From Byssovorax sp. (GTDB lineage: Bacteria > Myxococcota_A > Polyangia > Polyangiales > Polyangiaceae), in contig JANYGI010000036.1 in the NCBI GenBank assembly GCA_025362495.1, positions 1 through 64,000 on the forward strand: a stretch of 64,000 bases of DNA, read 5' to 3'. The notes below the pieces were generated by a model, which had not been told where the DNA came from, made no database searches, and worked only from the letters and a program-made list of their open reading frames with translations. Within the stretch, counting starts at the first letter, position 1. Each line of letters starts with the position of its first letter. Below are positions 4,834 through 36,422 of the stretch, piece after piece. The translations under genes and the position numbers were made by a program.

Positions 4834-5862
4834 TCAATCGCCGGACACAGTGACCATGGGTGAGGCCCAGACGCCGCCCTGCCCAGGGCCGCAGTGGGTC
4901 ATGAAGGCCTGTCCAGAGCTCGTGAAGATCCACTCGGCAGCGTGGGCCTGGAGGCGGGCAATCGGCGGCTCGCTGAAGTGGAAGGGAGACCGAGAGCAGT
5001 AGACGAACGTCGCGTCGAACGCCACCGGATAGGACGTCACCGTCAGGTAGTACCAGCCATCGCGCTCGAAGACGAAGGGCGACTCGGTGTAGCCCGAGTT
5101 GGCCATCGTCGGCGTGCTCTCGAGGATGAGGGCCATCGCGGGCGCGCTCCAGGTGCGCAGATCGCGCGAGGTGCGGTAAGCGACGCCGCTCCTTCGATCC
5201 TGGTCGCTGCTGCAGCGCGTGTAGTAGAGCGTCCACGTCTCCCCGCTCCTGCGCAGCATCGGATCCCTGGCGACGCAGATGTCCTCGAAGAGCGCGTCGC
5301 TGCCGACGCGGGTCCAGCGCTGGAGATCGGTCGACTCGGCCAGCCGGATCTGGGAGCGATCGCCGTCGCCGCCGCCGCTCTGAAAGACCATGACGTACCG
5401 ATCGTCGGCGCGGACGACGTGCGGCGCCCACAGGTGCGTCTCGCCGAGGTCCGCCCGGAGGCTGAGCGCGACTCCGCCGGCCAAAGGCGAGAGATGGAAG
5501 CTGCTGGCATCCCAGTCGGCGGGATCGCGAACCTCGGAGATGGCGTGAACGAAGTCGTGCTCGGCCTCTCCGGCAAAGGGCTCCTGGTGGAAAATACCGA
5601 AGAGGTGCCACCGCTGGTCGGCGCCGAAGATCAGCGTGTGATCGTTGACGTAATCGGGTCCTCCCGCCAGGTGCGCCGCGTCGAAGACGCGCTTTCTCGC
5701 GGCTCGCGCGACGAGGCGAGGGCAAGCGCTGGAGTCGTCGCGCCGGGTCGGGAGGGGCGGCTGCGGATCGCCGGAGAGTCGAGGCATCCAGGAACGATGC
5801 GTGATCGCCCCGAAGACCAGGCCCGCCAGCGAGGCGACCGTCAGCGCGATCCACCGGAGCAT
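4834..5862 (-). CDS. Membrane-anchored five-bladed beta-propeller glycosidase-like protein (GH43/GH32 type)
   Basis: The N-terminus has a hydrophobic anchor or signal (residues 1-20, IALTVASLAGLVFGA), so the protein is probably exported or tethered. The body carries landmarks of the GH43/GH32/GH68 propeller clan: NDHTLIFGADQRWHLFGI early, an RDPML motif at mid-length (compare RDP of GH32) and TESPFVFERDGWYYL later, where the glutamate would be the acid catalyst. Blade-like repeats of the form W-x-L-Y/F are visible throughout. It probably acts on a plant or microbial glycan, but the substrate is not readable. It diverges from the sterol genes across about 150 bp. Active-site assignment is by motif, not by alignment. 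Confidence 0.65.
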   Translation of the reverse strand: MLRWIALTVASLAGLVFGAITHRSWMPRLSGDPQPPLPTRRDDSSACPRLVARAARKRVFDAAHLAGGPDYVNDHTLIFGADQRWHLFGIFHQEPFAGEAEHDFVHAISEVRDPADWDASSFHLSPLAGGVALSLRADLGETHLWAPHVVRADDRYVMVFQSGGGDGDRSQIRLAESTDLQRWTRVGSDALFEDICVARDPMLRRSGETWTLYYTRCSSDQDRRSGVAYRTSRDLRTWSAPAMALILESTPTMANSGYTESPFVFERDGWYYLTVTSYPVAFDATFVYCSRSPFHFSEPPIARLQAHAAEWIFTSSGQAFMTHCGPGQGGVWASPMVTVSGD

Positions 5863-6014
5863 CCATGGATGGATAGGTCGCCAGCCCCTCGGCCAGCCAG
5901 GCGGGCCGCGTCGGCGAAGAGGCTATTTGTACCCGGCTGGAACGAAAACTCGGATCGTCGTCACGACGGCTCACCCGGGCTCGCGTTCGACCGACGTCGG
6001 TCGGTGATACGACA

Positions 6015-6866
6015 ATGCGATTGATCCGCCTCCGCGGCCCCGCGCTCGACCGCAAGCGCTTGACAGCAGCGCGGCGTCCGGGTGACTACCTCGCCATGCT
6101 CCTCTCGCTCCTGGCGCCCGCGAGCGTTCCGGGCAGCTTCGCTGTCCTGTTCGTGGGTGGCGTGCTCTTCTATCTGTTCACCTCGGGGACGAGCTACCTC
6201 TATTACTGCGTCTGGCGGCGAGAGCGCTTCTTTCCCGGGTGGTATCCCTCGACGCCGGCCGAGCACGCGCAGCGACGCGCCGAGTGGACGTGGGCTGTCT
6301 ACAACCTCCTCGGCAATGCCGTCCTGACCGCGCCGATCCATCACGCCATCGTCACCGGTCGGACCAGGATCTACTTTCATTTCCAGGATCACGGGTGGCC
6401 GTGGTACGCGGCGAGCTTCGCCGTCGTGCTGCTGTTCACCGAGCCGCTCGTCTACTGGGCGCACCGGTTCCTTCACCACCCGTTCCTCTATCGCCACATC
6501 CACGTTCACCACCACAAATTCCGCACCCCCTCGCCGTGGACGAGCATGGCGTTTCACCCGCTCGACTCGTTTGCTCAGGCGGCGCCCCATCACCTGCTCA
6601 TCTTCCTGATCCCGATGCACGTGAGCGTCTACGGGTTCTTCCTGATGTTCTTGCAGGTGTGGTCCACGTTCATCCACGAGCGGGTGACCTGGGTGCGCTG
6701 GAGCGCGATCAACTACACCGCGCATCACACGCTCCATCACAAGATCAACAAGTCCAACTACGGACAGTTCTTCACCTTCTGCGATCGCCTCTTCGGCAGC
6801 TACAAGAGCCCTGAAGGCATCGTGTACGACGGCGCGGAACAGCGGCTGCCCGTCGCGGCCGAGTGA
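6015..6866 (+). CDS. Sterol desaturase / fatty acid hydroxylase superfamily protein, ERG3-like (probable sterol C5-desaturase)
   Basis: This integral membrane di-iron enzyme has the three histidine clusters of the family: HRFLHH, then HIHVHHHKF, then HHTLHHKINKSNYGQF near the C-terminus. These hold the two irons. Several hydrophobic helices precede and separate them. The pattern and length (283 aa) fit ERG3/SC5D sterol C5-desaturases, which use O2 to turn a delta7 sterol into a delta5,7 diene. The gene is followed 13 bp later by an ERG2-type isomerase gene and then a DHCR7-type reductase gene, which supports a sterol rather than a lipid substrate. The start is uncertain: ATG 6015 and ATG 6096 both lack a clear ribosome site, and the shorter form begins right before the first hydrophobic stretch. 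Hydroxylation at another carbon cannot be excluded. Confidence 0.8.
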   Translation: MRLIRLRGPALDRKRLTAARRPGDYLAMLLSLLAPASVPGSFAVLFVGGVLFYLFTSGTSYLYYCVWRRERFFPGWYPSTPAEHAQRRAEWTWAVYNLLGNAVLTAPIHHAIVTGRTRIYFHFQDHGWPWYAASFAVVLLFTEPLVYWAHRFLHHPFLYRHIHVHHHKFRTPSPWTSMAFHPLDSFAQAAPHHLLIFLIPMHVSVYGFFLMFLQVWSTFIHERVTWVRWSAINYTAHHTLHHKINKSNYGQFFTFCDRLFGSYKSPEGIVYDGAEQRLPVAAE

Positions 6867-6879
6867 CGAAAGGAACCTC

Positions 6880-7443
6880 GTGGGATACATCTTTCAGCCT
6901 GAAATTCTCCACGATGCGGCGAAGCGCGCCGTCGCGACCGGCGGCTCGCTCCACGACAAGGTCGCCCGCATTCGCGGCGAGCTCTCGCGGCTCTACCCGG
7001 GCCACATCCGCCCCGAGACGGAGTGGGTGTTCAACATCGCCGGCGGCGCGCTCGGCCACATGACGATCCTGCACGCCTCGATCACCGAGTACGTGATCGC
7101 CTTCGGCACGCCGATCGGCACCGAGGGATATTCCGGGCGCTTCAGCTCCGACGATTACTTCATGATCCTCGAAGGCGAGCAGTGGGCCTTCGGCGAGGGC
7201 CAGGAAGACCGGCTGGTGTTCCGGCCGGGCGACATTCACCACATGCCGCGGGGCGAGGCGCGCGGCTACCGGATGCCGGACCGCTGCTATGCCCTGGAGT
7301 ACGCTCGTGGCTTCATCCCGAGCATGCTCCCCTTCGGCCTCGCCGACTCGTTCACGAGCACGGTCGACTACAAGCCAGTCGTCAAGACGATGCGCATCTA
7401 CGCGCGCGCCGTGATCGGCGAGCTGCTGAAGGGCAAGATCTGA
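6880..7443 (+). CDS. ERG2 / sigma-1-receptor family sterol C8 isomerase
   Basis: This 187-residue protein matches fungal ERG2 and the animal sigma-1 receptor along nearly its whole length. Landmarks are RLYPGHIRPETEWVFN, HASITEYVIAFGTPIG, YSGRFSSDDYFMILEGEQW, FRPGDIHHMPRGEA, and LEYARGFIPSMLPFGLAD. ERG2 moves the sterol double bond from C8 to C7. Glu140 in LEYARG corresponds to the ligand-binding glutamate (E172) of the sigma-1 receptor. The DDYF segment looks more like fungal ERG2 than like the receptor. The N-terminal membrane anchor of the eukaryotic proteins is missing. GTG 6880 is chosen because AGGA lies 6 nt upstream. It follows the desaturase gene by 13 bp, and the reductase gene starts one base after its stop, so the three are probably one operon. 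Confidence 0.88.
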   Translation: MGYIFQPEILHDAAKRAVATGGSLHDKVARIRGELSRLYPGHIRPETEWVFNIAGGALGHMTILHASITEYVIAFGTPIGTEGYSGRFSSDDYFMILEGEQWAFGEGQEDRLVFRPGDIHHMPRGEARGYRMPDRCYALEYARGFIPSMLPFGLADSFTSTVDYKPVVKTMRIYARAVIGELLKGKI

Positions 7444-7444
7444 C

Positions 7445-8779
7445 ATGTCCACCAGAGCACCTTCCCCCGCGCCGACGTGGTCCGGCCGCCGCCAGAGCCG
7501 CGCAGCCGAGGTGTTTCGCACCACGGTGGTCCCGCTGCTGCTGGTGATCGTCACGCCGCCGGCGGTGGTGCTGTTCTGGATCGCGTGCACCTATCTCGAC
7601 GGCTCCCTCCTTCGCCTGCTCACCGCCGAGGGTCTCGCCGCGCTGGTCGACCACTTCCCGAGGCCGAGCCTCGCCGCGATCGAGATCATCGTCGCCTTCG
7701 CCGTCTTCGAGCTCGGCTTGCTCAAGCTGCTCCCCGGCAAGACCTACGATGGACCGGTGACGCCCACGGGCAACCAGCCGCGGTACAAGCTCAATGGCAT
7801 CCTGGCGTGGGTGGTCTCGCACGGAGCCTTCCTCGGCGCCTCGTACGGCCTCGGGTGGTTCTCGCCGGCCATCGTGTTCGATCATTTCGGCGAGCTCCTG
7901 ATCACCCTGAGCGCGTCGTGCTTTCTGTTCTGCTGGTTCCTCTATTTCAAGGGGATCCACGCGCCCTCCACGACCGACGCCGGCGCGTCCGGCAACGTTG
8001 TCATGGATTACTTCTGGGGCGTCGAGCTCCACCCGACGCTCTTCGGGGTGAACCTGAAGCAGCTCTTCAATTGCCGGATCAGCATGATGGGCTGGAGCCT
8101 GACGGTGATCTCGTTCGCCGCGCGCCAGCGCCTCGACATCGGCCACGTGTCGACGTCGATGCTGGTCTGCTCGGTGCTCCTGGTGGCGTATCTCTTCAAG
8201 TTCTTCTACTGGGAGAGCGGCTATTTCACCAGCCTCGACATCATGCACGATCGCTTCGGCTACTACATCTGCTGGGGCGTGATCTCGTGGGTGCCAGGGG
8301 TGTATTCGATCACCGCGCAGTACCTCGTCAAGCACCCGCGCGAGCTCGGGACGCCGCTGACGATCGGCCTGCTCGCCCTTGGTTTCGGGGCAATCTGGAT
8401 CAACTACGCGGCCGATGCGCAGCGGCAGCGCGTCCGCGCGACGGGCGGGCAAACGACGGTGTGGGGCAAGCCTCCCGAGCTGATCCACGCCGAGTACACG
8501 ACGGCAGACGGGAAGACGCACAAGAGCCTCCTCCTCGTCTCGGGCTACTGGGGCATCGCCCGGCACTTCCACTACGTGCCCGAGCTGACTCTGGCCCTCG
8601 CCTGGAGCCTGCCCGCCGGCTTCAGCCATTTCTTGCCGTACTTCTACCTGATGTTCTTGACCATCTTGCTCACCGATCGCGCCGGCCGCGACGACCAGCG
8701 GTGCCGCACCAAGTACGGCCCGTTCTGGGAGGAGTACTGCAAGAAGGTGCCTTACAAGATCGTACCGGGGGTCTACTGA
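7445..8779 (+). CDS. Delta7-sterol reductase, DHCR7-like (ERG4/ERG24 family)
   Basis: This 444-residue polytopic membrane protein belongs to the ERG4/ERG24 sterol reductase family. The closest motif match is 7-dehydrocholesterol reductase: YFWGVELHP, FFYWESGYFTSLDIMHDRFG, LLVSGYWGIARHFHYVPEL, HFLPYFYLMFLTILLTDRAG, then RCRTKYGPFWEEYCKKVPY and a short terminal PGVY. The last block binds NADPH in the family. The reaction expected is reduction of the 7,8 double bond of a delta5,7 sterol, giving a delta5 sterol of cholesterol type. About nine hydrophobic helices are visible. The ATG at 7445 overlaps the context of the ERG2 stop, so translation is probably coupled. C14 reduction is the main alternative function; the FxxSLDIMHDRFG segment argues for DHCR7. 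Confidence 0.88.
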   Translation: MSTRAPSPAPTWSGRRQSRAAEVFRTTVVPLLLVIVTPPAVVLFWIACTYLDGSLLRLLTAEGLAALVDHFPRPSLAAIEIIVAFAVFELGLLKLLPGKTYDGPVTPTGNQPRYKLNGILAWVVSHGAFLGASYGLGWFSPAIVFDHFGELLITLSASCFLFCWFLYFKGIHAPSTTDAGASGNVVMDYFWGVELHPTLFGVNLKQLFNCRISMMGWSLTVISFAARQRLDIGHVSTSMLVCSVLLVAYLFKFFYWESGYFTSLDIMHDRFGYYICWGVISWVPGVYSITAQYLVKHPRELGTPLTIGLLALGFGAIWINYAADAQRQRVRATGGQTTVWGKPPELIHAEYTTADGKTHKSLLLVSGYWGIARHFHYVPELTLALAWSLPAGFSHFLPYFYLMFLTILLTDRAGRDDQRCRTKYGPFWEEYCKKVPYKIVPGVY

Positions 8780-8799
8780 ACCTGAATGGCCCAAACGAT

Positions 8800-8821
8800 C
8801 CTCCCGGCACGAGCCGGGAGG
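8800..8821. terminator. Hairpin between convergent genes, probable bidirectional terminator
   Basis: A perfect 9-bp stem (CCTCCCGGC / GCCGGGAGG) closes a 4-base ACGA loop. It lies 21 bp after the reductase stop and 16 bp before the end of the opposing M23 gene. Read on the minus strand, it is followed by a short T-containing stretch (ATCGTTTGGG). There is no strong U tract on either side. Placement between convergent genes is the main support. Confidence 0.6.
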
Positions 8822-8836
8822 GCCAGTTCGCCGCCG

Positions 8837-9802
8837 CTACTTCGCGGGCATCGGGGGCGCGAGGAGCTCGGGATCGATCCGCACCTCGAGGTAGTTCATG
8901 CGCCAGTCGAGGTGAGCGCCGGTGGCGCGGCCGGTGTCGCCCGACTTCGCGATCACGTCGCCTTGCTTCACCTCGTCACCGACCTTCTTGCTGAAGCCGG
9001 AGAGGTGCAGGAACGTCGAGGTCACCCCGTGGCCGTGGTCGAGCACCAGAGTCGTCCCGCTCAACGGATCTCCCGTCTCGGCGAAGACGATCGTCCCGCA
9101 CGCCGGCGCCTTGATGGCAGTCCCGGTGGGCACCGCGATGTCGACGCCCCAGTGGACACCGCCATCGCTGCCGTTGAGCACGCGCGTGAGCCCGTAGTGC
9201 GAGGTGATCTTGCCGGTGGCGGGCCAGTGGAAACCATCCTTCCAGCAGGTCTTGTCGGTGGCCTTCATCCGCACCGCGTCGATGCGCCCCTCGGCCGAGT
9301 TGTTGGCCTTGGCGGCCTTCGGATCGAGCTTCACCTCGTCCTCGGGCAAGCCGTCGATCTTCTCCGTCGCGTAGGTGCGTTGCTCGACGTTGAACACGTG
9401 CTCGAGGACCGAGCCGTCCTGGAAGTGAATGACCATCTTCTCGGTCGCGGGCGCGTTGCGGAAGAAGGCGATCGGGAAATCGCCTTCGTTGCTCACCGTG
9501 GCGCGGTGCCCCGGGAAATCGATCCGCGCGACCTTGCCTTCGACCTTGGCGACCAGGAGGGCGCCCTGGATCGGCTTTCCCGTCAGGACGAGGTGACTCG
9601 GATCGGCCTGCACGGGGGCCGCGGACGCGGGCGCGGCGGGCGTGGAGGCGAGCGGCGTGGCGCTCGCCCCACCGCTGGTCGCGCCCGCCGTGGAAGTGGC
9701 CAGAGGCGCTGAAGCGGGGACCACGGCGGCGTCGGCCGAAGCGCTCTTGTTATCGCATCCACAGGCGAGCAGGAGCGCGAATCCGATCGGGAGATATTTC
9801 AT
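8837..9802 (-). CDS. M23 family metallopeptidase lipoprotein
   Basis: The first 20 residues (MKYLPIGFALLLACGCDN) form a lipoprotein signal with cysteine in a lipobox. An Ala/Ser/Thr-rich linker follows. The C-terminal 120 residues are a peptidase M23 (LytM) domain: HWGVDIAVPTGTAI with the HxxxD zinc ligands, HGHGVTSTFLHLSGF, and a final HLDW where active LytM enzymes normally have HxH. The family cuts peptidoglycan cross-links. The H-to-D change at the last ligand may lower activity or alter metal binding, though HLDW variants are known in proteobacterial M23 proteins. ATG 9802 is chosen because AGGA precedes it by 7 nt and it begins the signal peptide. Confidence 0.82.
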   Translation of the reverse strand: MKYLPIGFALLLACGCDNKSASADAAVVPASAPLATSTAGATSGGASATPLASTPAAPASAAPVQADPSHLVLTGKPIQGALLVAKVEGKVARIDFPGHRATVSNEGDFPIAFFRNAPATEKMVIHFQDGSVLEHVFNVEQRTYATEKIDGLPEDEVKLDPKAAKANNSAEGRIDAVRMKATDKTCWKDGFHWPATGKITSHYGLTRVLNGSDGGVHWGVDIAVPTGTAIKAPACGTIVFAETGDPLSGTTLVLDHGHGVTSTFLHLSGFSKKVGDEVKQGDVIAKSGDTGRATGAHLDWRMNYLEVRIDPELLAPPMPAK

Positions 9803-9940
9803 CGCGCATCCTGAGCCCGGCGCCGGACGAGGCGGTCGTCGAAGCAGGATCGTGACGTTGTCGCGCACGAAATCGCGCGCGGATGCGCCCCGGTGGGGCG
9901 ATCTTGCGTCGCTCACTCGCCGCGTCGAGAGGCCTTGGCG

Positions 9941-10441
9941 TCAGCTCCGCGGGAGCAGCGCGAGGAGGGCCTGGGCGCCGAACGTCTTGTCATGGACAAG
10001 CACGCTCCGGATGAGCTTCGAGCTACCGTGAACGGCGTTCCCGAGCTCTTCGCCCGTCACGTCGAGCTTGCAGGCCATGAGGCGCTGCGCGTAGCGGACG
10101 AGCAGCGCGTCGCAGTCGCGGTAGAAGCGCGGGCTCCCGTCGTTCGCGAGGAAGAGGATCCGCGAGGCGCGCGCGTTCTGCGGGCTCTCGGGCGTCTTCT
10201 TGCTGGCCGCGTCGAGGCCTTTCTGCTCGTTCGCCAGCTTGTCGGTGATGAGCTCGAGGCCCTGACAGGCGTGCCCCGCGACGAGGGCGCCGCGGAGCGT
10301 GGAGCTCAGCGCCTCGGTCATCGGGAGAGTCGCTACCTGGACACGGCCGCCCTCCCACAGCACGCCCGCATGCTTCGACAGGAGACTAACGACCTCGTCG
10401 TGGCGGGGATCGGCGACGACGTCTTTCGGCAATTTGAGCAC
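9941..10441 (-). CDS. Uncharacterised small protein at the end of the MoxR-VWA operon (5' end disrupted)
   Basis: The 166 residues starting at GTG 10441 (VLKLPKDVVADPRHDEVV...) are not assignable to a named family. They look like a soluble alpha/beta protein. The frame continues upstream without an ATG to a stop near 10511. Meanwhile the preceding VWA gene's stop overlaps an ATG (10535) in ATGA fashion, exactly like the two other junctions of this operon. That ATG opens a 27-codon frame, MSDDLLLVIASQATRSARP..., which ends in TAG at 10452. The simplest reading is one gene from 10535 to 9941 broken by a frameshift near 10450-10470. If real, the protein may be translated only from GTG 10441 or not at all. 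Confidence 0.5.
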   Translation of the reverse strand: MLKLPKDVVADPRHDEVVSLLSKHAGVLWEGGRVQVATLPMTEALSSTLRGALVAGHACQGLELITDKLANEQKGLDAASKKTPESPQNARASRILFLANDGSPRFYRDCDALLVRYAQRLMACKLDVTGEELGNAVHGSSKLIRSVLVHDKTFGAQALLALLPRS

Positions 10442-10451
10442 GCGCGTGCCT

Positions 10452-10535
10452 CTACCAGATCCGGGGCGGGCTGGCGATCGGGCGCGCTGATCGCGTCGCC
10501 TGCGACGCGATCACGAGGAGAAGATCGTCGCTCAT
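10452..10535 (-). other. Coupled start and first 27 codons of the disrupted downstream gene
   Basis: ATG 10535 overlaps the TGA of the VWA gene (ATGA). It encodes 27 residues beginning MSDDLLLVIASQ before TAG at 10452. Its sequence looks like the normal hydrophobic beta-strand start of a folded protein and is followed, one frame away, by the 166-residue frame at 9941-10441. It is probably the N-terminus of that protein. Confidence 0.5.
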
Positions 10536-11743
10536 TTTTTGCGCTCTGCCGCGGCGAGCAGCGGTCCGAGGTCTTGACCCTTCATCACGTGACTGACCAC
10601 CTCGGCGAGCAGCGCCGGCGTGCAGCCGAAGCACGGTATCCCGAGGTCGGCCAGCGTCCGCGCGAGCTCGTGATCGTAGGAGGGCTTCCCGCCGTCCGAG
10701 AGCGCGAGGAGGCACATGGCCTTCACCCTGGCGTCGACGAGCTGGCGCATCCGGCCGACCAGCTCGTCGCGATTACCACCCTCGTAGAGATCGCTTATCA
10801 GTAAAAATAGCGTTTTGTCGGGCCGCACGACGAAGTTTTGCTGCGCGTAGGCCACGGCTCGGTTGATGTCGGTGCCGCCGCCGAGCTGCGCCGTGAAGAG
10901 CACGTCGACCGGATCTTCCAGGAGGGGAGTCACGTCGACGACCTCGGTGTCGAAGAAGAGCAGCTTGGTTTGCAGTACGTCGATCGAGGCGAAGATCGCC
11001 GCCATGATCGAGCTGTACACGACGCTTTCGGCCATCGATCCCGACTGGTCGACGAGAATGCACACGTCCCACTCGTGGCGCCGCCGCTGGTTCTGCCAGA
11101 AGTGGAAGCGGTCGGGTACGAGGCGGCGCCGATCGACGTCCCAGCCCTTCAAATTCGAGCGGATCGTGCGCTTCCAGTCGATGTTGCGGATCAGCTTGAG
11201 CGGGCTCGATCGGTCGCGGCGGACGGCGCCGAGGATCGAGGTGCGCATCTCGGTCTCGAGGCGCTTGCGCACGTCCTCGACCACCTCGCGGACGATCTGC
11301 CGCGCGGCCTCGCGGGCCCGATCGGGGATGAGCCCTTTCGCGCTGAGGAGGGTGGCCACCAGCTCGACGTTCTTCTCCAGGAGGGGCAGAGTCTCGGGCT
11401 CGAAAAGGAGCTGCGTCAGCCCTTTGCGCTCGATGGCGTCTTTCTGGACGAGGGCGATGACGTCTTGACGGAAGAAGTCGCGGAGCGACGATAGCCACTT
11501 CGGGATGTACGGCCGCGACTTCGCGAGGCTGGTGGTCTTCGCCGCGCCCTCGTAGACGAAGGAGAGCGCGTCATCGAGCTCGCCGAGCCGGCCCTTGTCG
11601 AGATCGAGCTCGCCCGCGCCGCTGCCGAGGTGGCCGAGGCCGAAGTCGGGACTGACGTTCTCAGCGCGCGGGCCGAGGGCGAGGCGCCAGCGCAGGAGGG
11701 CGTCGCGGTCGGCGTCGCTGAGGTCGTGCGGATCGTCGCTCAT
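10532..11743 (-). CDS. VWA domain protein, CoxE/YehP-like
   Basis: The C-terminal half (about residues 220-390) is a von Willebrand factor A domain of the CoxE type. It has an intact metal-ion site: DQSGSMAES (DxSxS), a threonine in GGGTDINRA and the aspartate in LISDLYEGG. The N-terminal half is helical and precedes the strand VCILVDQSGS, as in YehP of E. coli. MoxR ATPases and VWA proteins work together as metal-dependent assembly or remodelling factors. The start ATG 11743 overlaps the DUF5682 stop by ATGA, and the gene's own stop does the same with the next start. Its place in the operon is MoxR, DUF5682, VWA, small protein. The target of the complex is unknown. Confidence 0.85.
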   Translation of the reverse strand: MSDDPHDLSDADRDALLRWRLALGPRAENVSPDFGLGHLGSGAGELDLDKGRLGELDDALSFVYEGAAKTTSLAKSRPYIPKWLSSLRDFFRQDVIALVQKDAIERKGLTQLLFEPETLPLLEKNVELVATLLSAKGLIPDRAREAARQIVREVVEDVRKRLETEMRTSILGAVRRDRSSPLKLIRNIDWKRTIRSNLKGWDVDRRRLVPDRFHFWQNQRRRHEWDVCILVDQSGSMAESVVYSSIMAAIFASIDVLQTKLLFFDTEVVDVTPLLEDPVDVLFTAQLGGGTDINRAVAYAQQNFVVRPDKTLFLLISDLYEGGNRDELVGRMRQLVDARVKAMCLLALSDGGKPSYDHELARTLADLGIPCFGCTPALLAEVVSHVMKGQDLGPLLAAAERKK

Positions 11744-27491: not shown

Positions 27492-27520
27492 AGTTTCCGC
27501 CGCGCCACCCCGCTTGTCAA
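27492..27520 (-). promoter_or_regulatory. Proposed crtE promoter
   Basis: Minus-strand -35 TTGACA (27520-27515) is followed, after 17 bp, by -10 GAAACT (27497-27492), which is weak but placed correctly. The -35 box overlaps the left arm of the shared operator. The start codon lies 8 bp after the -10, consistent with a leaderless message. Confidence 0.45.
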
Positions 27521-27553
27521 TGGTTTGTATAATAATTGTACAAACCGTGGACA
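27515..27553. promoter_or_regulatory. Inverted-repeat operator between crtE and crtD (probable CarH site)
   Basis: The pattern is TGTC-N3-GGTTTGTA-N9-TACAAACC-N3-GACA, a perfect two-tier palindrome in an AT-rich island (TATAATAATT in the centre) of a GC-rich genome. The half-site GGTTTG/CAAACC also occurs between crtI and carH. The arms overlap the -35 boxes of both divergent promoters, so bound protein would block both. The TGTACA core agrees with the TnTACA-type elements known for Thermus CarH. Binding by the CarH encoded at 36.4 kb is inferred. Confidence 0.7.
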
Positions 27554-27576
27554 GATCCATTTTCGAATCCTATGAC
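27548..27576 (+). promoter_or_regulatory. Proposed crtD promoter
   Basis: -35 TGGACA (27548-27553), a 17-bp spacer and -10 TATGAC (27571-27576). The -35 box is inside the right arm of the operator. The crtD ATG is 7 bp after the -10, so transcription should start at or next to the start codon. Confidence 0.55.
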
Positions 27577-27582
27577 TGCGTG

Positions 27583-29157
27583 ATGCGGAGCGAGCGCGTC
27601 GTCGTCGTGGGCGGAGGAGTGGGTGGCCTGGTGACGGCCGCGCTCCTCGCGCACGCCGGAGCGGAAGTTCTCGTCCTGGAGCGGGCTGCACGGGTCGGCG
27701 GCAAGATGCGGCAAGTGCATCCTTCGGGCCGCGCCGTCGATGCCGGCCCGACCGTCCTGACCATGCGCTGGGTGTTCGAAGAGCTCTTCGAGGCGCTCGG
27801 GACAACGTTGGACAAGCATCTCCAGCTCACCCCCGCCAGCCTCCTCGCGCGCCACGCCTGGGCGACGCCTGGCGGCGCGCCGCAGCAGCTCGATCTGTTC
27901 GCCGATCTCGAGCGATCGGCCGAGGCGATCGGCGCCTTCGCGGGCCCGGGCGAGGCCGAGGGCTACCGGCGCTTCTGCGCGTACGCGCGCCGGATCTACG
28001 CGACGGTCGAGCAGCCGTTCCTGCGATCGCAGCGGCCCACGCTCGGGTCGACGCTGGCGATCGCGCGCGAGCTCGGCGTCTCGGCGCTGCTGGGCATCGA
28101 CGGTCACCGCACCGTGTGGAAGGCCCTCGGCGACTTCTTCCGCGACGCCCGGCTACGCCAGCTCTTCGGCCGCTACGCGACGTACTGCGGGTCGTCGCCG
28201 TTCCTCGCGCCGGCCACGCTCAACGTCATCGCCCATGTCGAGCGCGACGGCGTGTGGCTCGTCGAGGGCGGCATGTACCAGGTCGCCGCGGCGCTCGCGG
28301 GCCTCGTCGAGTCCGCGGGCGGGACCATCCGCGTCGGCGCCCATGTCGAGGAGATCTTGATCGATCGCGGCCGCGCGTCCGGCGTGCGCCTCGCCGATGG
28401 AGAGCGGATCGCCGCGGGCGCCGTGGTGCTCAACGGCGACGCCGAGGCGCTGGCTCGCGGCTTCTTCGGCGAGGCCGCCTCGAGCGCCGGCGCCGCGCCG
28501 AAGGAGCGATCGCTCTCGGCGATCACCTGGGCGCTCGCGGCCGAGACGCGCGGCTTCCCGCTCGCGCGCCACAACGTCTTCTTCTCCTCGAAGTACGAGC
28601 CCGAGTTCCGCCAGATCTTCGAAAAGGGCGAGGTCCCGACCGAGCCCACTGTCTACGTTTGCGCACAAGATCGTGACGATCACGGCGACTTTCCCGGGGG
28701 CGCCGAGCGCCTCCTCGTCCTCGTCAACGCCCCCGCACGAGGGGATCGAAACCCCCTCCGACCTGCCGAGGTTGCCGCATGCGAAACCCGTTGCTTCGAC
28801 TTGTTGAGCCGTTCGGGTCTGCACGTCTCCCGCGATCCGAGCACCACCGTGGTGACGACGCCGACCGACTTCTCGAGGCTCTTTCCGGCGACGGGCGGGG
28901 CGCTCTACGGAGCGGCGTCGCACGGAATGACGTCACCGTTCTCGAGGGCCGGATCGCGGACCAAGATCCCCGGCCTGTACCTGACGGGCGGCAGCGCGCA
29001 CCCGGGCGCGGGGGTGCCGATGGTGGCCCTCAGCGGGAAGCTCGCCGCGGCGAGCGCGCTCGCGGACCTCGCTTCGACCGGCCGATCGCGGACGGCGGCT
29101 ACGCCTGGTGGTACGCCGACGTCGTCAGCGACGACGGGCGCCACGCGCTCAGCCTGA
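27583..29157 (+). CDS. crtD: CrtD-type carotenoid 3,4-desaturase (CrtI/CrtD family oxidoreductase)
   Basis: The N-terminus is an FAD-binding Rossmann motif, VVVVGGGVGGLVTAALLAHAG, followed by RVGGKMRQVHPSG and DAGPTVLTM. The C-terminus has the family signature GLYLTGGSAHPGAGVPMV. The length and the MTSPFSR segment fit hydroxycarotenoid 3,4-desaturases (CrtD) better than phytoene desaturases. The true CrtI is at 34.8 kb. The enzyme would add the 3,4 double bond to the hydrated end produced by CrtC. ATG 27583 starts the Rossmann strand and has no ribosome site, consistent with a leaderless mRNA. The last 25-30 codons after SALADLA look like read-through into another frame, where crtC begins. 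Confidence 0.82.
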   Translation: MRSERVVVVGGGVGGLVTAALLAHAGAEVLVLERAARVGGKMRQVHPSGRAVDAGPTVLTMRWVFEELFEALGTTLDKHLQLTPASLLARHAWATPGGAPQQLDLFADLERSAEAIGAFAGPGEAEGYRRFCAYARRIYATVEQPFLRSQRPTLGSTLAIARELGVSALLGIDGHRTVWKALGDFFRDARLRQLFGRYATYCGSSPFLAPATLNVIAHVERDGVWLVEGGMYQVAAALAGLVESAGGTIRVGAHVEEILIDRGRASGVRLADGERIAAGAVVLNGDAEALARGFFGEAASSAGAAPKERSLSAITWALAAETRGFPLARHNVFFSSKYEPEFRQIFEKGEVPTEPTVYVCAQDRDDHGDFPGGAERLLVLVNAPARGDRNPLRPAEVAACETRCFDLLSRSGLHVSRDPSTTVVTTPTDFSRLFPATGGALYGAASHGMTSPFSRAGSRTKIPGLYLTGGSAHPGAGVPMVALSGKLAAASALADLASTGRSRTAATPGGTPTSSATTGATRSA

Positions 29158-29996
29158 TCGCCCTCCTGGGCAGCGTGTTTTCGCCGTATTACGCCGCGGC
29201 GCGCGCCCTGTCGCCGCGCGCGGATCCCCTGGCGCACTGCTCGATGAACGTCGCCCTCTACGGGCCCGCGCGTGATCACTGGGCCTTCACCGAGCGCGGG
29301 CGCGCCGCCGTGCAGCGCGACGAGCACGCGCTCGCGATCGGGCCCAGCGCAATGTGGTGGGAGGGCGGCGCGCTGGTGATCGAGTTCGACGAGACGACGG
29401 CGCCGTTCGGATCGCGCCTCGCGGGACGCGTGCGGATTTACCCGGAAGAACGCGATGGAACGCCGCTGTCGCTCGACGCCGAGGGCAAGCACTGCTGGTG
29501 GCCGATCGCGCCCGCCGCGCGCGCCGAGGTCGAGCTCACGCACCCGCGCCTGCGCTTCCGCGGGGCCGCGTACCACGACGCCAACGCCGGCGACGAGCCG
29601 CTCGAGCGCGCCTTCGAGAGCTGGACGTGGTCGCGCGTGGCCTGCCGCGAGCGGGCCGTCATCACCTACGACGTGATCCCTAAGGGCGGCGCAAGACGCT
29701 TGATTTCACGGTCATTCGAGCGCGGCGGCCAGGTCCACGACGACGTCCCGGTGGTGGAGCGCTCGCTCCCGCCGACGCGCTGGGGGCTCGATCGTCGGAT
29801 CCAGGTCGGTGCGGGGACGAAGCCCGAGCTCCTGCGCACGCTCGAGGACACGCCCTTTTATTCGCGGTCGATGGTGCGCGCGAGCTACCTCGGCAGCCCC
29901 GCCGTGGGCGTGCACGAGACGCTCTCGCTCGGCCGCTTCGCCAGCTCGTGGGTGCAGTTCCTCCTGCCGTTCCGCATGAAGAGGTCGCCCCGGTGA
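29064..29996 (+). CDS. crtC: CrtC-type carotenoid 1,2-hydratase, without a recognisable start codon
   Basis: The frame encodes conserved CrtC sequence from GPRFDRPIADGGYAWWYADV onward: GSVFSPYYA, NVALYG, WAFTERGR, HCWWPIAP and SWTWSRV. CrtC adds water across the terminal 1,2 double bond of neurosporene, lycopene or gamma-carotene derivatives. The given start is where similarity begins, not an initiation codon. In this frame there is no ATG, GTG or TTG between 28779 and the conserved GGYAWWY block. Either crtD and crtC are joined by a frameshift near 29040-29070, or a rare start is used, or the sequence has an error. The stop overlaps the next gene's GTG (GTGA). Confidence 0.72.
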   Translation, partial: GPRFDRPIADGGYAWWYADVVSDDGRHALSLIALLGSVFSPYYAAARALSPRADPLAHCSMNVALYGPARDHWAFTERGRAAVQRDEHALAIGPSAMWWEGGALVIEFDETTAPFGSRLAGRVRIYPEERDGTPLSLDAEGKHCWWPIAPAARAEVELTHPRLRFRGAAYHDANAGDEPLERAFESWTWSRVACRERAVITYDVIPKGGARRLISRSFERGGQVHDDVPVVERSLPPTRWGLDRRIQVGAGTKPELLRTLEDTPFYSRSMVRASYLGSPAVGVHETLSLGRFASSWVQFLLPFRMKRSPR

Positions 29997-31162
29997 TCGC
30001 GCCGCTGCTCGCCGTCGCCGTCGCCGCGCTCGGGTGGTCGAGCGTCGTCGCGTCGGTCGAGATCGAGGCGATTCGCCGCGCTCTCCTGCGCAGCACGGCG
30101 TCGTCGCCTCGCCCCGACGGCGTTCGCGTGCTGGTGATCCGCCCCTGCGCGGGGCTCGAGCCCGAGCTCGATCGCACCCTCGCCTCGCTGGCCGAGGCGT
30201 CGCGATCGTTCGAGGTGCGCTGTCGTTTCGCCGTCGAAAATGCGAGCGATCCTGCGCTCCCCGCCGCGGAGCGGTCCGTCGCCAGCCTCGCCCTGCGAGG
30301 GATCGAGGCCAGCGTGGTGCTCACGTCGGCCGCGGCGCCGAACCGCAAGGCGGCGCAGCTCGCGGCGGTGATCGCCCGCGAAATCGAGCCTTTCGACGTG
30401 ATCCTCATCGCCGACAGCGACGTCGATCTCGCCGGCACCGACCTCGACGCGCTCGTGGCGCCGCTGGCGATCGCCGGTGGACCGGACGCCGCGTGGGCGC
30501 CCCCGGTGGAGCTGGGGACCCCGCAAACCACCGCAGATCGCGCCTCGGCCGCGCTGCTCGGCGCCTCGCTCCACGCCTTCCCGCTGCTCGCGGGGCTCGA
30601 CCCGCGCGGGCTCGTGGGCAAGCTCTTCGCCGTGCGACGGAGCGCCCTCGCGGCGATCGGCGGCTTCGACGCGTTCACCGCGCACCTCGGCGAGGACATG
30701 GAGATCGCGCGGCGCCTGCTCGCCCGCGGCGGGGCGATCGTCGCGGCGCCGGTGATCGCGCGATCGATGGCGGGCGGGCGGAGCTGGGACGAGGCCGTGG
30801 GACGCTTCGCGCGCTGGCTCGGCGTCATCCGCGCGCAGCGCCCGCTGCTCTTGCCGAGCTACCCGGCGCTGTTCTTCGCGACGCCGATGATCCTGGCGAT
30901 CGCAATGATCGCCGCGCCCGGCGCCCCCGCGATCGCCTTCGCTGCGGCGGTGATCGCCGTCGCCGCGCGCCTCGCGGTGGCGCTCGTCGCGGCGCGCGCG
31001 TCGGGTCGTCCCGTCGGGCTCGGGCGCGCCCTCGTCGAGTCCGCGCTCGCCGACGCGCTGCTCGCCGCGGCGTTCGCGCGCTGCCTGCGCACGCGCCACG
31101 TCGTCTGGCGAAAGGGCGTGCTCACGATCGAGAGGACCGGCCTGGTCCGGGAGGGGCGGTGA
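29993..31162 (+). CDS. Family 2/21 glycosyltransferase (ceramide glucosyltransferase-like), probable carotenoid glycosyltransferase
   Basis: The protein has an N-terminal hydrophobic segment, a GT-A domain and C-terminal membrane helices. Motifs are RPCAGLEPEL, ILIADSDVDL (DxD-like), GEDMEIARRL and a GRFARWLGVIR segment (the (Q/R)xxRW-type site). This is the layout of GT21 ceramide glucosyltransferases and HpnI. Placement directly after crtC with a GTGA overlap suggests it transfers a sugar to the 1'-hydroxyl made by CrtC. Its last 41 bp overlap the end of the acyltransferase gene on the other strand. Confidence 0.78.
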   Translation: MIAPLLAVAVAALGWSSVVASVEIEAIRRALLRSTASSPRPDGVRVLVIRPCAGLEPELDRTLASLAEASRSFEVRCRFAVENASDPALPAAERSVASLALRGIEASVVLTSAAAPNRKAAQLAAVIAREIEPFDVILIADSDVDLAGTDLDALVAPLAIAGGPDAAWAPPVELGTPQTTADRASAALLGASLHAFPLLAGLDPRGLVGKLFAVRRSALAAIGGFDAFTAHLGEDMEIARRLLARGGAIVAAPVIARSMAGGRSWDEAVGRFARWLGVIRAQRPLLLPSYPALFFATPMILAIAMIAAPGAPAIAFAAAVIAVAARLAVALVAARASGRPVGLGRALVESALADALLAAAFARCLRTRHVVWRKGVLTIERTGLVREGR

Positions 31163-31907
31163 GCTCGTGCGATCCCGAGCTCGATCCCCCGGCAAAGCGC
31201 GCGAGCAGCCCCGTGGCCGCGGCGCCGAACCACGACTCGGTGGCGCTATGAACGATCTCGAAATCGTCGCCTTCGCCGCGGACCGCCCGCTCGATCCGCG
31301 CGAGCTCGGCCTCGACCGCGCTCTCGTGGGTGCCGAGCGCCCTGGTGACGTCGCGCTCGGGCGGCAGCGGCGCGCCCAGCGAGATGTAGAGCGAGGGCTT
31401 CTCGTTCGCGCCGAACTCGTAGCGAATGCCCACAGGCACCGCGCGCGAGCGCCGCGCGACGCGGGCGATCTCGGCCGATCCGGGCCGGAACGCCAGCGGC
31501 TTCTCGGTGATCGGGCGCTCGCGCCCCTGCGGGAAGATCCACACTGCGCGCCCGGCGCGATCGAGCAGGCGCGCCGTGTACTTGATCGCCGCGGCGCCGT
31601 CGGCGGGGCGATCGAGATCGACGCCGAACGCGCCGACGAGGCCGAAGAAGGGCAAGCGTCGCAGGTTCTTCGCGTCCATCATCGCGTAGCCGTCGACGTC
31701 GAGGAGGTGCTGCGAGACATGGAGCGCGACGAGCGGATCCCACCACGCGGAGTGGTTGGCGACGAGGAGCACGGGCGCCTCGGCGCAGAGCGCGCGCGCG
31801 CGAGCGAGGCCATGAACGAGCGTGACGCCGAAGGTGGCGCGCAGGCGATCCCGGGCGTGGCCCGCGAACCAGGCGTTGAAAAATCGGCCTTTGCGGGCGG
31901 GAATCAA
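31122..31907 (-). CDS. PlsC-family acyltransferase
   Basis: The acyltransferase has block I NHSAWWDP (HX4D), block III FPQGRERP and a following hydrophobic P-V-G-I strand, which mark the PlsC/LPAAT family. It could acylate lysophosphatidate. Beside a glycosyltransferase in a carotenoid cluster it may instead esterify the carotenoid sugar, as myxobacterial carotenoids often carry a fatty-acylated glucose. The start is TTG 31907, supported by GGAG 8 nt upstream; the ATG in that region is out of frame and stops at once. Only 26 bp separate it from the divergent crtZ start. About 50 tail residues are Ser/Gly-rich. Confidence 0.78.
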   Translation of the reverse strand: MIPARKGRFFNAWFAGHARDRLRATFGVTLVHGLARARALCAEAPVLLVANHSAWWDPLVALHVSQHLLDVDGYAMMDAKNLRRLPFFGLVGAFGVDLDRPADGAAAIKYTARLLDRAGRAVWIFPQGRERPITEKPLAFRPGSAEIARVARRSRAVPVGIRYEFGANEKPSLYISLGAPLPPERDVTRALGTHESAVEAELARIERAVRGEGDDFEIVHSATESWFGAAATGLLARFAGGSSSGSHELTAPPGPGRSSRS

Positions 31908-31933
31908 GGCATTTTCTCCGATGCGAGGGTGGC

Positions 31934-32491
31934 GTGATCGCGGCCGCGGCCATCTGGGTCCCGGTGGCCCTCTCCGTCGCTGCGGCGATGGAGCTCTGGG
32001 CCGGGCTGCTCCACGGGCGCTTCTGGCACGGCGTGCTCTACCCGGTTCACCGCTCGCATCATCGCAAGCGGCACGGCCGGTTCGAGGCCAACGACGCGCT
32101 CTCCGCGCTCCACGCGCCGATCGCCATCGCGATGATCCTCTACGGCTGCGTCGCCGCGCCGGGCCCGCTGCGCGAGGTGGTCTTCGGCGTGGGGATCGGG
32201 ATGACGCTCTTCGGCGTCGCGTACCTCGTGTTTCACGACGGCTTCGTCCACGGTCGGCTCCCGGTGCGCTGGCTCGGCAAGGTCGCCCTCTTCGCGCGGA
32301 TCCGCGACGCGCACCGCGTTCACCACGGCCGTGGAGCCGCGCCTTACGGCTTCTTTCTCGGCCCTCAAGAGCTCGCGGCGGCGCGCGCTCGGGATCGCGA
32401 CCGCGATCATGATCGAGGCGACGGCGTCAGCGCGCACGCCAGAGCTCGCGCGCGATCCCCGCGCCCCAGCGGCCGACTTCGCCGGGGCTGA
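31934..32491 (+). CDS. crtZ: CrtZ-type beta-carotene 3-hydroxylase
   Basis: This small di-iron membrane hydroxylase has the CrtZ histidine boxes: HRSHHRKR, VFHDGFVHGR and RDAHRVHHGR, with FEANDALS between the first two. Four hydrophobic helices surround them. It hydroxylates C3 of a beta-ring, which in this cluster would be the ring made by the CruA-like cyclase. GTG 31934 has GAGGG 4 nt upstream. Family similarity ends near GPQEL (about 32370). The last 40 residues are Arg/Asp-rich and overlap the end of the cyclase gene, so the C-terminus may be non-essential. Confidence 0.8.
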   Translation: MIAAAAIWVPVALSVAAAMELWAGLLHGRFWHGVLYPVHRSHHRKRHGRFEANDALSALHAPIAIAMILYGCVAAPGPLREVVFGVGIGMTLFGVAYLVFHDGFVHGRLPVRWLGKVALFARIRDAHRVHHGRGAAPYGFFLGPQELAAARARDRDRDHDRGDGVSAHARARARSPRPSGRLRRG

Positions 32492-33866
32492 GCGAACCCC
32501 AGACGTCGCGGTACACGCGCGGCCGCAGCGTCGAGGTCGAGTACAGGAAGCGAAGAAAATCGGCGGGCGCCATCTCGTCGCGCAGCAGCGAGGCGTAGGC
32601 GTCGTTGCCCATGGCGTGGAGCGTGTGGAACGCGGCGTCGAGCAGATCGTTGAGCTCGCCCTTGCGCCGCGGATCGCGCGACGGCGTGGCCATCATCCGC
32701 GCGAGGGCGCCGGTGCCGGCGTGGATCGCGTCGTCGCTGACCACGCCGCCCGCGATCGACGCGCCGCCCGAGAGCGCCTCGGCGATGGCGTTCGCCGTGT
32801 GGCGCAGCGATCGCGCCGTCGCGCCGAAGCCGCAGAACGTGAGCGGCGAGTGGCGCGCTGCCGCGTCGCCGACGAGCGCGATACGCGGCCCCGGCGAGGA
32901 CGGCGCGGGCCCGAGCCGCGACCACCCGGGGATGTACCCGAACGTCGGTCGCACGAGCCGCGCCGCGCCGCGCTTGTAGCGCGGGAGCCGCGCGAAGAAG
33001 CGCCCGTAGAGGTCCAGCAGCGAGCCCGCCGGCACGTCGCTGGAGCGCGCGTAATAGAAAAGGTAGACGGCGACCTCGCCGGATCGCCCTGGGAACGCCT
33101 CCCAGATGTGCTGCACGCCGTCCTCGATCCCCTCGGTGGTCGCGAGGATGTCGCCCGTGTCGCGCTGGATCTGATCGTCACCGGGGCCTTCTTCCAGGCC
33201 CGAAACGACGCCGCCGACGGTGGGGCAGATCAAGTCGGCCGTCGCGTACGGGCTCGACGCGCCGCGCGCGTCCACGAGGAGGCGCGCCGTCACCACCCGT
33301 GGCGCGCCGTCAACGACGTGGAACGAGAGGGCGATCGCGTCGGGCCCCGCGGCCTCGCCGAGCAGCGCGTGGCCGTCGAAGATCGCGACGCCGCGCTGCT
33401 CGGCGCGCGCGCGGGCCGCGGCGAGCAGCGCGCCGGCGTCGAAGGCGTGATCGAGCACGCCGGTGACGGGGTACGAGCCGCCGCCGTGCCAGCGGCAGAT
33501 CCCCTGCGCGTACCTCGCGACGATCAGCCCATCGATCTCGGCGCGCGTGAAGAGGCCGGTCTCGACGAGCGCCGTCAGCTCGCGGGCGCCCGCGTTCCAC
33601 TCGCGGTGGGCGAAGCCGACGCGGGCGCGATCGAACACCGCGACGCGGAGGCCGCGATCGGCGAGGAGCGGCGCCAGCAGGAGCGAGAGGCCCCCGCCCG
33701 CGAGGACGACGTCGTACTCGGCGTGCGCGCCGCGATCCGGCGCGGCGATCGGGGCGGGCGGGCGTGATCGTTCGCCGCGCGCGGCGTCGAGGTGCAGGAG
33801 GCGCTCGACCAGCTCGTCGCCGCCGGCCTCGCGCACGCGCTCGCGAGCGTCGTCCGGCGCGCTCAC
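32427..33866 (-). CDS. CruA/CruP-type lycopene cyclase-like flavoprotein
   Basis: An N-terminal FAD-binding motif VVLAGGGLSLLLAPLLADRG is followed by features of the CruA/CruP cyclases of green sulfur bacteria and cyanobacteria: HREWNAGARELTAL, CRWHGGGSYPVTGVLDHA, EAFPGRSGEVAVYLFYY, PTFGYIPGWSRL, and IALVGDAAARHSPLTFCGFG. CruA closes one end of lycopene to a beta-ring, which fits the presence of crtC and crtD for the other end. It starts at GTG 33866, whose bases overlap the crtB stop (GTGA), as the third gene of a crtI-crtB-cruA operon. Motif similarity cannot separate CruA from CruP. Its place in the crt operon favours an active cyclase. No CrtY, CrtYc or CrtYd is present. Confidence 0.8.
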   Translation of the reverse strand: MSAPDDARERVREAGGDELVERLLHLDAARGERSRPPAPIAAPDRGAHAEYDVVLAGGGLSLLLAPLLADRGLRVAVFDRARVGFAHREWNAGARELTALVETGLFTRAEIDGLIVARYAQGICRWHGGGSYPVTGVLDHAFDAGALLAAARARAEQRGVAIFDGHALLGEAAGPDAIALSFHVVDGAPRVVTARLLVDARGASSPYATADLICPTVGGVVSGLEEGPGDDQIQRDTGDILATTEGIEDGVQHIWEAFPGRSGEVAVYLFYYARSSDVPAGSLLDLYGRFFARLPRYKRGAARLVRPTFGYIPGWSRLGPAPSSPGPRIALVGDAAARHSPLTFCGFGATARSLRHTANAIAEALSGGASIAGGVVSDDAIHAGTGALARMMATPSRDPRRKGELNDLLDAAFHTLHAMGNDAYASLLRDEMAPADFLRFLYSTSTLRPRVYRDVWGSLSPGEVGRWGAGIARELWRAR

Positions 33867-34834
33867 GACGCGGCCTTGTGCAGCAGCGGCGCCTCGCGCA
33901 TCGTCCGCGCGACGGCCATCACCAGGAACCGCGTCTCCGGCAGCGGCGGCGCCGAGCGCAGCTCGGGCGCGTGCTCGCCCTCGCGCGCGAACAGCGATCG
34001 CAGCACCAGCCAGAGCTTGCGCCGCGTCGACACCACCGCGCGGCGCGACACCGAGTCGAAGCGCGCGGTGGTGATCTCGCGCCCGATGTCGGCGTAGATC
34101 AGCCGCGCCGCCCGGATCGCCGCGCGGCAGTCGGGCGGCAGCATCGCGATGCCGACGTCCGATCGCGTGTAGAGGCAGCTCGCGTAGCGCAGGAGTCGCT
34201 CGATCACCGATCCGATTTTCTCGTCGAAGACCGGCTGGCGCAGGAAGGCGTGCGCGTCGACGCGCGCGTCCTCGAGCCACGCCGAGGGCAGGTAGATCCG
34301 CCCGTTGCGCGCGTCCTCGCCCACGTCGCGCGCGATGTTGGTCAGCTGCATGGCGACGCCGAGGTCGCACGCGCGCGCCAGCGTGTCGGGATCGCGCGGG
34401 CCCATCAGCGCGGTCATCATCGCGCCCACGGTCGCGGCGACGCGGGCCCCGTAGGCGCAGAGCTCGGCGATGGTCGCGTAGCGGCGCCCCTCGGCGTCCC
34501 ACGCGAAGCCCTCGATCAGCGCGTCCATCAGCTCGCGCGGCATGTCCTGCTCGGCGGCGACACGCGAGAAGGCGCGATCGATCGGGGAGTCGAAAGGCCG
34601 CCCCTCGTAGGCCAGATCGAGCCTCCGGCGCAGCTCGTCGACGGCGCCGGGATCGTCGGCCTCGTCGATGGCGTCGTCGGCCATGCGACAGAACGCGTAG
34701 AGCGCCGCGGCCGGCCGCCGCACGCGCGCCGGCAGGAGGAGCGACGCCGCCGCGAAGCTCTTCGAGCCCGCGCGCAGCATCGCCCGGCAGGCGGCAAAAT
34801 CGGCCTCGCTGGCCTCAGGTAAGAGCAGCGGCAT
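33863..34834 (-). CDS. crtB: Phytoene synthase
   Basis: The 323-residue enzyme shows both aspartate-rich motifs of squalene/phytoene synthases, RMADDAIDEADD and QLTNIARDVGEDARNGRIYLP. The start segment SKSFAAASLLLPARVRRP is also typical. It joins two geranylgeranyl diphosphates to phytoene, taking its substrate from CrtE. Its start lies 20 bp inside the end of crtI, and its stop overlaps the cyclase start, so the three genes are translationally linked. Confidence 0.92.
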   Translation of the reverse strand: MPLLLPEASEADFAACRAMLRAGSKSFAAASLLLPARVRRPAAALYAFCRMADDAIDEADDPGAVDELRRRLDLAYEGRPFDSPIDRAFSRVAAEQDMPRELMDALIEGFAWDAEGRRYATIAELCAYGARVAATVGAMMTALMGPRDPDTLARACDLGVAMQLTNIARDVGEDARNGRIYLPSAWLEDARVDAHAFLRQPVFDEKIGSVIERLLRYASCLYTRSDVGIAMLPPDCRAAIRAARLIYADIGREITTARFDSVSRRAVVSTRRKLWLVLRSLFAREGEHAPELRSAPPLPETRFLVMAVARTMREAPLLHKAAS

Positions 34835-36323: not shown

Positions 36324-36330
36324 GCGGGTG

Positions 36331-36358
36331 AGTGTAATGGCTGTTCATGGTTTGACAA
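36331..36358 (-). promoter_or_regulatory. Proposed crtI promoter
   Basis: Minus-strand -35 TTGTCA (36358-36353), a 16-bp spacer and -10 TACACT (36336-36331). The -35 lies in the centre of the operator palindrome. The crtI ATG begins 8 bp after the -10. Confidence 0.55.
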
Positions 36359-36369
36359 ACCTTTTACAG
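36341..36369. promoter_or_regulatory. Inverted-repeat operator between crtI and carH
   Basis: The pattern is CTGT-N4-GGTTTG-A-CAAACC-N4-ACAG, a perfect 29-bp two-tier palindrome. The GGTTTG/CAAACC half-sites are the same as in the crtE-crtD operator, but with 1 bp instead of 13 bp between them. It covers the -35 boxes of both divergent promoters, so CarH would repress crtI and its own gene together in the dark. Binding is inferred. Confidence 0.7.
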
Positions 36370-36380
36370 TGCGATAAATC
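36352..36380 (+). promoter_or_regulatory. Proposed carH promoter
   Basis: -35 TTGACA (36352-36357), a 17-bp spacer and -10 TAAATC (36375-36380, weak). The -35 overlaps the operator centre. The expected leader before GTG 36423 is about 36 nt, too short for a riboswitch. Confidence 0.5.
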
Positions 36381-36422
36381 CACGACTTACCGAGTGTTAT
36401 TCCGCACACCGAAAGTGCCAGC

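Follow-up and report, generated by a model that had tools for sequence, protein, structure and literature searches.

The window, by which we mean the whole 64,000-nucleotide stretch of Byssovorax sp. DNA that was analysed, is the start of contig C166 in genome G000 (10.84 Mb in 240 contigs, 96.6% complete). Near its beginning, three adjacent plus-strand genes of sterol-enzyme families are separated by intergenic gaps of 13 bp (genes 1 and 2) and 1 bp (genes 2 and 3). The features of the locus are as follows:

6096–6866, plus strand: gene 1, putative ERG3-type sterol C5(6)-desaturase of the fatty-acid hydroxylase superfamily, in an open reading frame that is open from 6015
6880–7443, plus strand: gene 2, putative ERG2-type sterol C8-to-C7 isomerase, anchor-less, with a GTG start and AAGGA upstream
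7445–8779, plus strand: gene 3, putative sterol C7(8) reductase of the DHCR7 clade (ERG4/ERG24 family), 444 amino acids
8800–8821: perfect GC-rich inverted repeat CCTCCCGGC-ACGA-GCCGGGAGG without a T run, between the trio and a convergent M23 peptidase gene

The third-position GC of the trio is 0.88–0.92, which fits genuine coding sequence. A first, sequence-only reading of this DNA had reported the three adjacent open reading frames with these gaps, and its coordinates stand, with only the start of gene 1 shifting from 6015 to about 6096. Sequence similarity of gene 1 to other proteins sets in near 6096, and a start at or close to this position is more likely than one at 6015, which probably lies too far upstream; no obvious ribosome-binding site is seen at 6096 or at 6015. 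The neighbours of the trio, a GH43-like protein upstream and the M23 peptidase downstream, are both encoded on the opposite strand. The inverted repeat is a possible transcription end of the trio; terminator prediction did not call it. Because the genome holds so few sterol-family genes, the adjacency of these three is not due to chance, and we infer that they are co-transcribed as one unit. Elsewhere in the window, at 27514–37358, there is a carotenoid-type group containing two Amino_oxidase proteins (phytoene desaturase-like), a CrtZ-like FA_hydroxylase, an acyltransferase and a phytoene synthase (237 bits), together with a MerR regulator that carries B12-binding domains, an arrangement known from CarH light control.

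The product of gene 1 matches the Pfam family FA_hydroxylase (PF04116) with 91 bits, far above the cut-off, and is 34% identical over 232 amino acids (E 6e-36) to the published ERG3 of Candida glabrata, the reference sequence being taken from PMC11277825. It carries the three histidine clusters expected of ERG3/SC5D enzymes (HxxxH, HxxHH and HxxHH), with HRFLH, HVHHH and HTLHH aligning to HRWLH, HKPHH and HTVHH of the C. glabrata protein. Close homologues (at least 190 bits) are found in 18 genomes of the phylum, and the next score drops to 106 bits. We considered whether gene 1 could be some other member of the superfamily, such as a hydroxylase of sterols or fatty acids, as Pfam and NCBIfam yield the broad superfamily only, NCBIfam offers no specific family and there is no relative among solved structures. 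However, gene 1 and its orthologues, with two MAG loci, cluster with the real ERG3 against the other Myxococcota hydroxylases with SH-aLRT support of 99, in a tree where C. glabrata ERG3 is the single eukaryotic reference, sits on a long branch and has an insecure exact place. The ERG3-type stretch around the histidine clusters is also common to gene 1 and the C. glabrata protein. A different hydroxylase is thus very improbable, and the earlier assignment of gene 1 as an ERG3-like C5-desaturase is the one we keep.

Gene 2 encodes a full-length ERG2/sigma-1 core, matching the Pfam family ERG2_Sigma1R (PF04622) with 237 bits over profile positions 22–210 of 210. It scores 116 bits against the sigma-1 receptor structure 5hk1 and is 40% identical to the human sigma-1 core. 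Its Glu140, the equivalent of the ligand-binding Glu172 of sigma-1, does not vary among 31 aligned sequences. The pattern DDYFMILEGEQW of the bacterial proteins is presumably closer to yeast ERG2 than to sigma-1. In sigma-1, an N-terminal membrane helix occupies the region that is missing from the bacterial ERG2 proteins. Indeed, the N-terminal transmembrane helix of eukaryotic ERG2/sigma-1 is absent from gene 2, which begins at profile position 22, and most of its homologues start at the same point, about 35 residues later than the eukaryotic forms. Because the whole bacterial group lacks the helix that defines the eukaryotic forms, we file gene 2 and its bacterial kin as a predicted anchor-less bacterial branch of the ERG2/sigma-1 family. 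In the tree, gene 2 falls into a 15-row clade (support 98/91) together with isomerases that are located inside sterol clusters. A search of G000 for EBP found none, so EBP was rejected as a second C8 isomerase, and the putative ERG2 protein is the sole C8 isomerase recognised in this genome. Both results agree with the first reading, which had called an ERG2/sigma-1-like isomerase and not EBP.

Gene 3 matches the Pfam family ERG4_ERG24 (PF01222) with 251 bits, which like the Pfam scores of genes 1 and 2 is far above the cut-off, and is one of three ERG4/ERG24 proteins in G000. This family contains both C14 and C7 activities, and gene 3 could be a C14 (delta-14) sterol reductase, in which case the operon would be without its last step. 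Its best solved match is the delta-14 sterol reductase MaSR1 of a methanotroph (PDB 4quv; 241 bits, 35% identity), and a MaSR1-type reductase (about 57% identical to MaSR1) adjoins ERG2 in three genomes. The tree, in contrast, places gene 3 in a fully supported clade of 22 sequences, apart from MaSR1 and fungal ERG24 (both from the PDB) and also separate from a CYP51-linked clade that holds the second G000 reductase; the nearest Myxococcota kin of MaSR1 are other genes. The orthogroup of gene 3 comprises 22 genomes, all scoring at least 434 bits, and the next group reaches at most 262 bits. Human DHCR7 joins the gene 3 clade with support of 98/95, which we treat as a lead only. Most of the clade also has a C-terminal PGxY/PGxF ending, which DHCR7 has as well. 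Furthermore, natural candidates for the C14 enzyme lie elsewhere: the second reductase adjoins CYP51 in G000, and its orthologue adjoins the cyclase in the sterol cluster of genome G178. Genome G324 has a MaSR1-type and a gene 3-type reductase together. A C14 role for gene 3 is therefore quite improbable, and we retain the DHCR7-like delta-7 reductase that had been proposed, our mark for such an enzyme being a position outside the delta-14 reductase clade.

The AlphaFold model of gene 3 is confident (pLDDT 89.6). There was no DHCR7 among the PDB and BFVD matches of gene 3, BFVD (a viral structure library) gave no real match for either reductase model, and the viral contigs held no giant-virus DHCR7 for use as an independent reference. 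A different two-gene pairing, in which a MaSR1-type delta-14 reductase comes immediately after ERG2, occurs in three genomes of family f11 (loci L093, L094 and L096).

The first reading had placed the genes for the sterol precursor elsewhere in the genome and had named the absence of a sterol cyclase, together with a lack of sterols in the cells, as a result that would count against it. A cyclase is in fact encoded on contig C31, in a cluster with a squalene synthase-like gene, a squalene epoxidase, an SdmB-like dehydrogenase and the Rieske protein SdmA. It is of the lanosterol type, scoring 430 bits against lanosterol synthase and 152 bits against squalene-hopene cyclase, and its motif PVSDCTAE is of the V453 type, which is taken as lanosterol-forming (PMC10152446). 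The SdmA is 56% identical to that of genome G357, and the SdmB-like protein was called by a 3Beta_HSD/Epimerase match and its place beside SdmA. On contig C190, CYP51, which scores 467 bits against a solved CYP51, lies directly before the second ERG4/ERG24 reductase, which is called a C14 reductase by position and clade. All the components by which we recognised a de novo pathway (oxidosqualene cyclase, squalene epoxidase, CYP51, C14 reductase and SdmAB) are present in G000.

The proposed search for upstream genes thus recovered the cyclase, squalene epoxidase, CYP51, SdmA and an SdmB-like protein; the part that did not hold up was the C24 reductase. The whole of G000 contains no orthologue of Bsr, which reduces C24 in Sandaracinus amylolyticus and Minicystis rosea (PMC12004948), the best match (28%) being squalene epoxidase itself. 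For DHCR24, the seven FAD_binding_4 proteins of G000 include weak candidates and none that is convincing, so this genome, at 96.6% completeness, yielded neither form of the enzyme. The third ERG4/ERG24 reductase (C231, 61208–62341, minus strand; 208–1341 of locus L015) lies near a polyprenyl synthase and has similar proteins in relatives without a cyclase; on these grounds it was set aside as a C24 reductase.

From the families, clades, gene order and upstream genes we infer the activities, reaction order and end product of the pathway. Squalene would be converted to its epoxide and then to lanosterol by the C31 cluster enzymes. CYP51 and the adjacent reductase on C190 would eliminate the methyl group at C14 and the double bond that its loss creates there, and SdmA with the SdmB-like protein of C31 would take off the C4 methyls. 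Gene 2 would shift the C8(9) double bond to C7(8), gene 1 would introduce the C5(6) double bond, and gene 3 would remove the one at C7(8) to leave a delta-5 sterol. Since the searches recovered no C24 reductase, the C24 double bond may persist and a desmosterol-like product is predicted, the likely end product being desmosterol. Saturation of C24 by an unrecognised enzyme would give cholesterol instead, an outcome that is not assured because neither DHCR24 nor a bacterial substitute was found. Overall, we hold it to be highly likely that the trio is transcribed as a single unit and handles the ring double bonds in a cholesterol-type sterol pathway that runs de novo.

We surveyed 379 Myxococcota genomes for these families. 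The ERG2 family is present in 34 genomes and EBP over the cut-off in 59, and an oxidosqualene cyclase was detected in 63, which divide into 13 with ERG2 only, 7 with EBP only, 14 with both and 29 with neither. The first reading had called a compact trio with an ERG2-type isomerase unusual; the isomerase type itself is common in this phylum, occurring in 27 of the 63 cyclase-bearing genomes. Conversely, a cyclase is present in 27 of the 34 ERG2 genomes (p 8.5e-18, not corrected for relatedness). In the 14 cyclase-bearing genomes where ERG2 and EBP coexist, both may act as C8 isomerases. All three families of the trio are found in five genomes (G000, G178, G355, G357 and G369), each of which also has a cyclase. 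Across the searched genomes the full trio was seen side by side only in the window, and the ERG3–ERG2 adjacency recurs only in two MAG loci (L006 and L007); the DHCR7-like genes fetched elsewhere had no sterol-pathway probe gene beside them. In locus L069 (genome G290), positions 5671–11127 carry SdmB, ERG2, SdmA and CYP51 as a compact run in that order, and the opposite strand encodes a C14-type reductase.

The other two families are distributed differently from ERG2. Because no cyclase was detected in 9 of the 18 genomes with an ERG3-like protein, nor in 14 of the 22 with a DHCR7-like reductase, neither family is tied solely to de novo sterol synthesis. Myxobacteria are predators, and these many carriers without a detected cyclase could suggest that the trio remodels sterols from eukaryotic prey. 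G000 itself, however, encodes the cyclase, epoxidase, CYP51, SdmA and SdmB-like protein, and the occurrence of ERG2 follows that of the cyclase throughout the phylum, which makes prey-sterol remodelling improbable for this locus; we therefore continue to favour de novo synthesis. In the 14 genomes with a DHCR7-like reductase and no detected cyclase (G020, G031, G058, G065, G097, G140, G195, G196, G230, G234, G253, G262, G314 and G325), the reductase may act on prey sterols or on something else.

Bacterial cholesterol synthesis has already been published for Enhygromyxa (PMC10202945) and for Sandaracinus and Minicystis (PMC12004948), and the myxococcal ERG2 isomerase is not rare; what is new here is the three-gene unit. 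The organism is very probably one more example, and an unusually tidy one, of a bacterium with the means to make eukaryote-like sterols, and adds a probable sterol maker to the myxobacterial phylum. Its three late enzymes lie in one small unit that lends itself to cloning and expression in one piece. The ERG2-type isomerase, better known from fungi and the sigma-1 receptor, emerges as a usual component of sterol clusters in myxobacteria, and this bears on the question, raised in PMC12004948, of whether eukaryotes received, gave or shared sterol steps with Myxococcota. The anchor-less ERG2 proteins could also serve studies of structure and ligand binding in the sigma-1/ERG2 fold. We can only speculate, and think it on the whole unlikely, that two further things both hold: that the anchor-less ERG2, which is widespread among sterol-making Myxococcota, resembles the ancestor of the ERG2/sigma-1 family more closely than the membrane-anchored form of eukaryotes does, and that this lineage runs an EBP-free late pathway from one operon, stopping at desmosterol without a C24 reductase of either known kind.

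Compared with the eukaryotic ERG2/sigma-1 family, the bacterial gene 2 shares the ERG2_Sigma1R domain and the invariant equivalent of Glu172, and differs in the N-terminal membrane helix, which is missing from the bacterial proteins. The pathway of Enhygromyxa salina (PMC10202945) is also bacterial and de novo; its loci are scattered across the genome, and desmosterol and zymosterol accumulate. It differs in using SdmABC and a canonical C24 reductase, and its genes are unclustered; PMC10202945 does not name its isomerase type. The pathway of Sandaracinus amylolyticus and Minicystis rosea (PMC12004948) comes from the same phylum and has the same SdmA plus SdmB type of C4 demethylation, and an isomerase type for Sandaracinus or Minicystis was not found named in the literature text. 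S. amylolyticus, a demonstrated cholesterol producer (PMC12004948), is probably our genome G178. The G178 cluster runs SdmB-SdmA-Bsr-epoxidase-cyclase-C14-type reductase-epoxidase-squalene synthase-CYP51-ERG2, and the sterol cluster of G357 also ends in CYP51 and ERG2. G178 has the same three families as the trio, including an ERG2-type isomerase and no EBP. However, its ERG2 lies in the main sterol cluster, with the C5-desaturase and C7 reductase elsewhere, whereas in G000 the three form one unit apart from the cyclase cluster.
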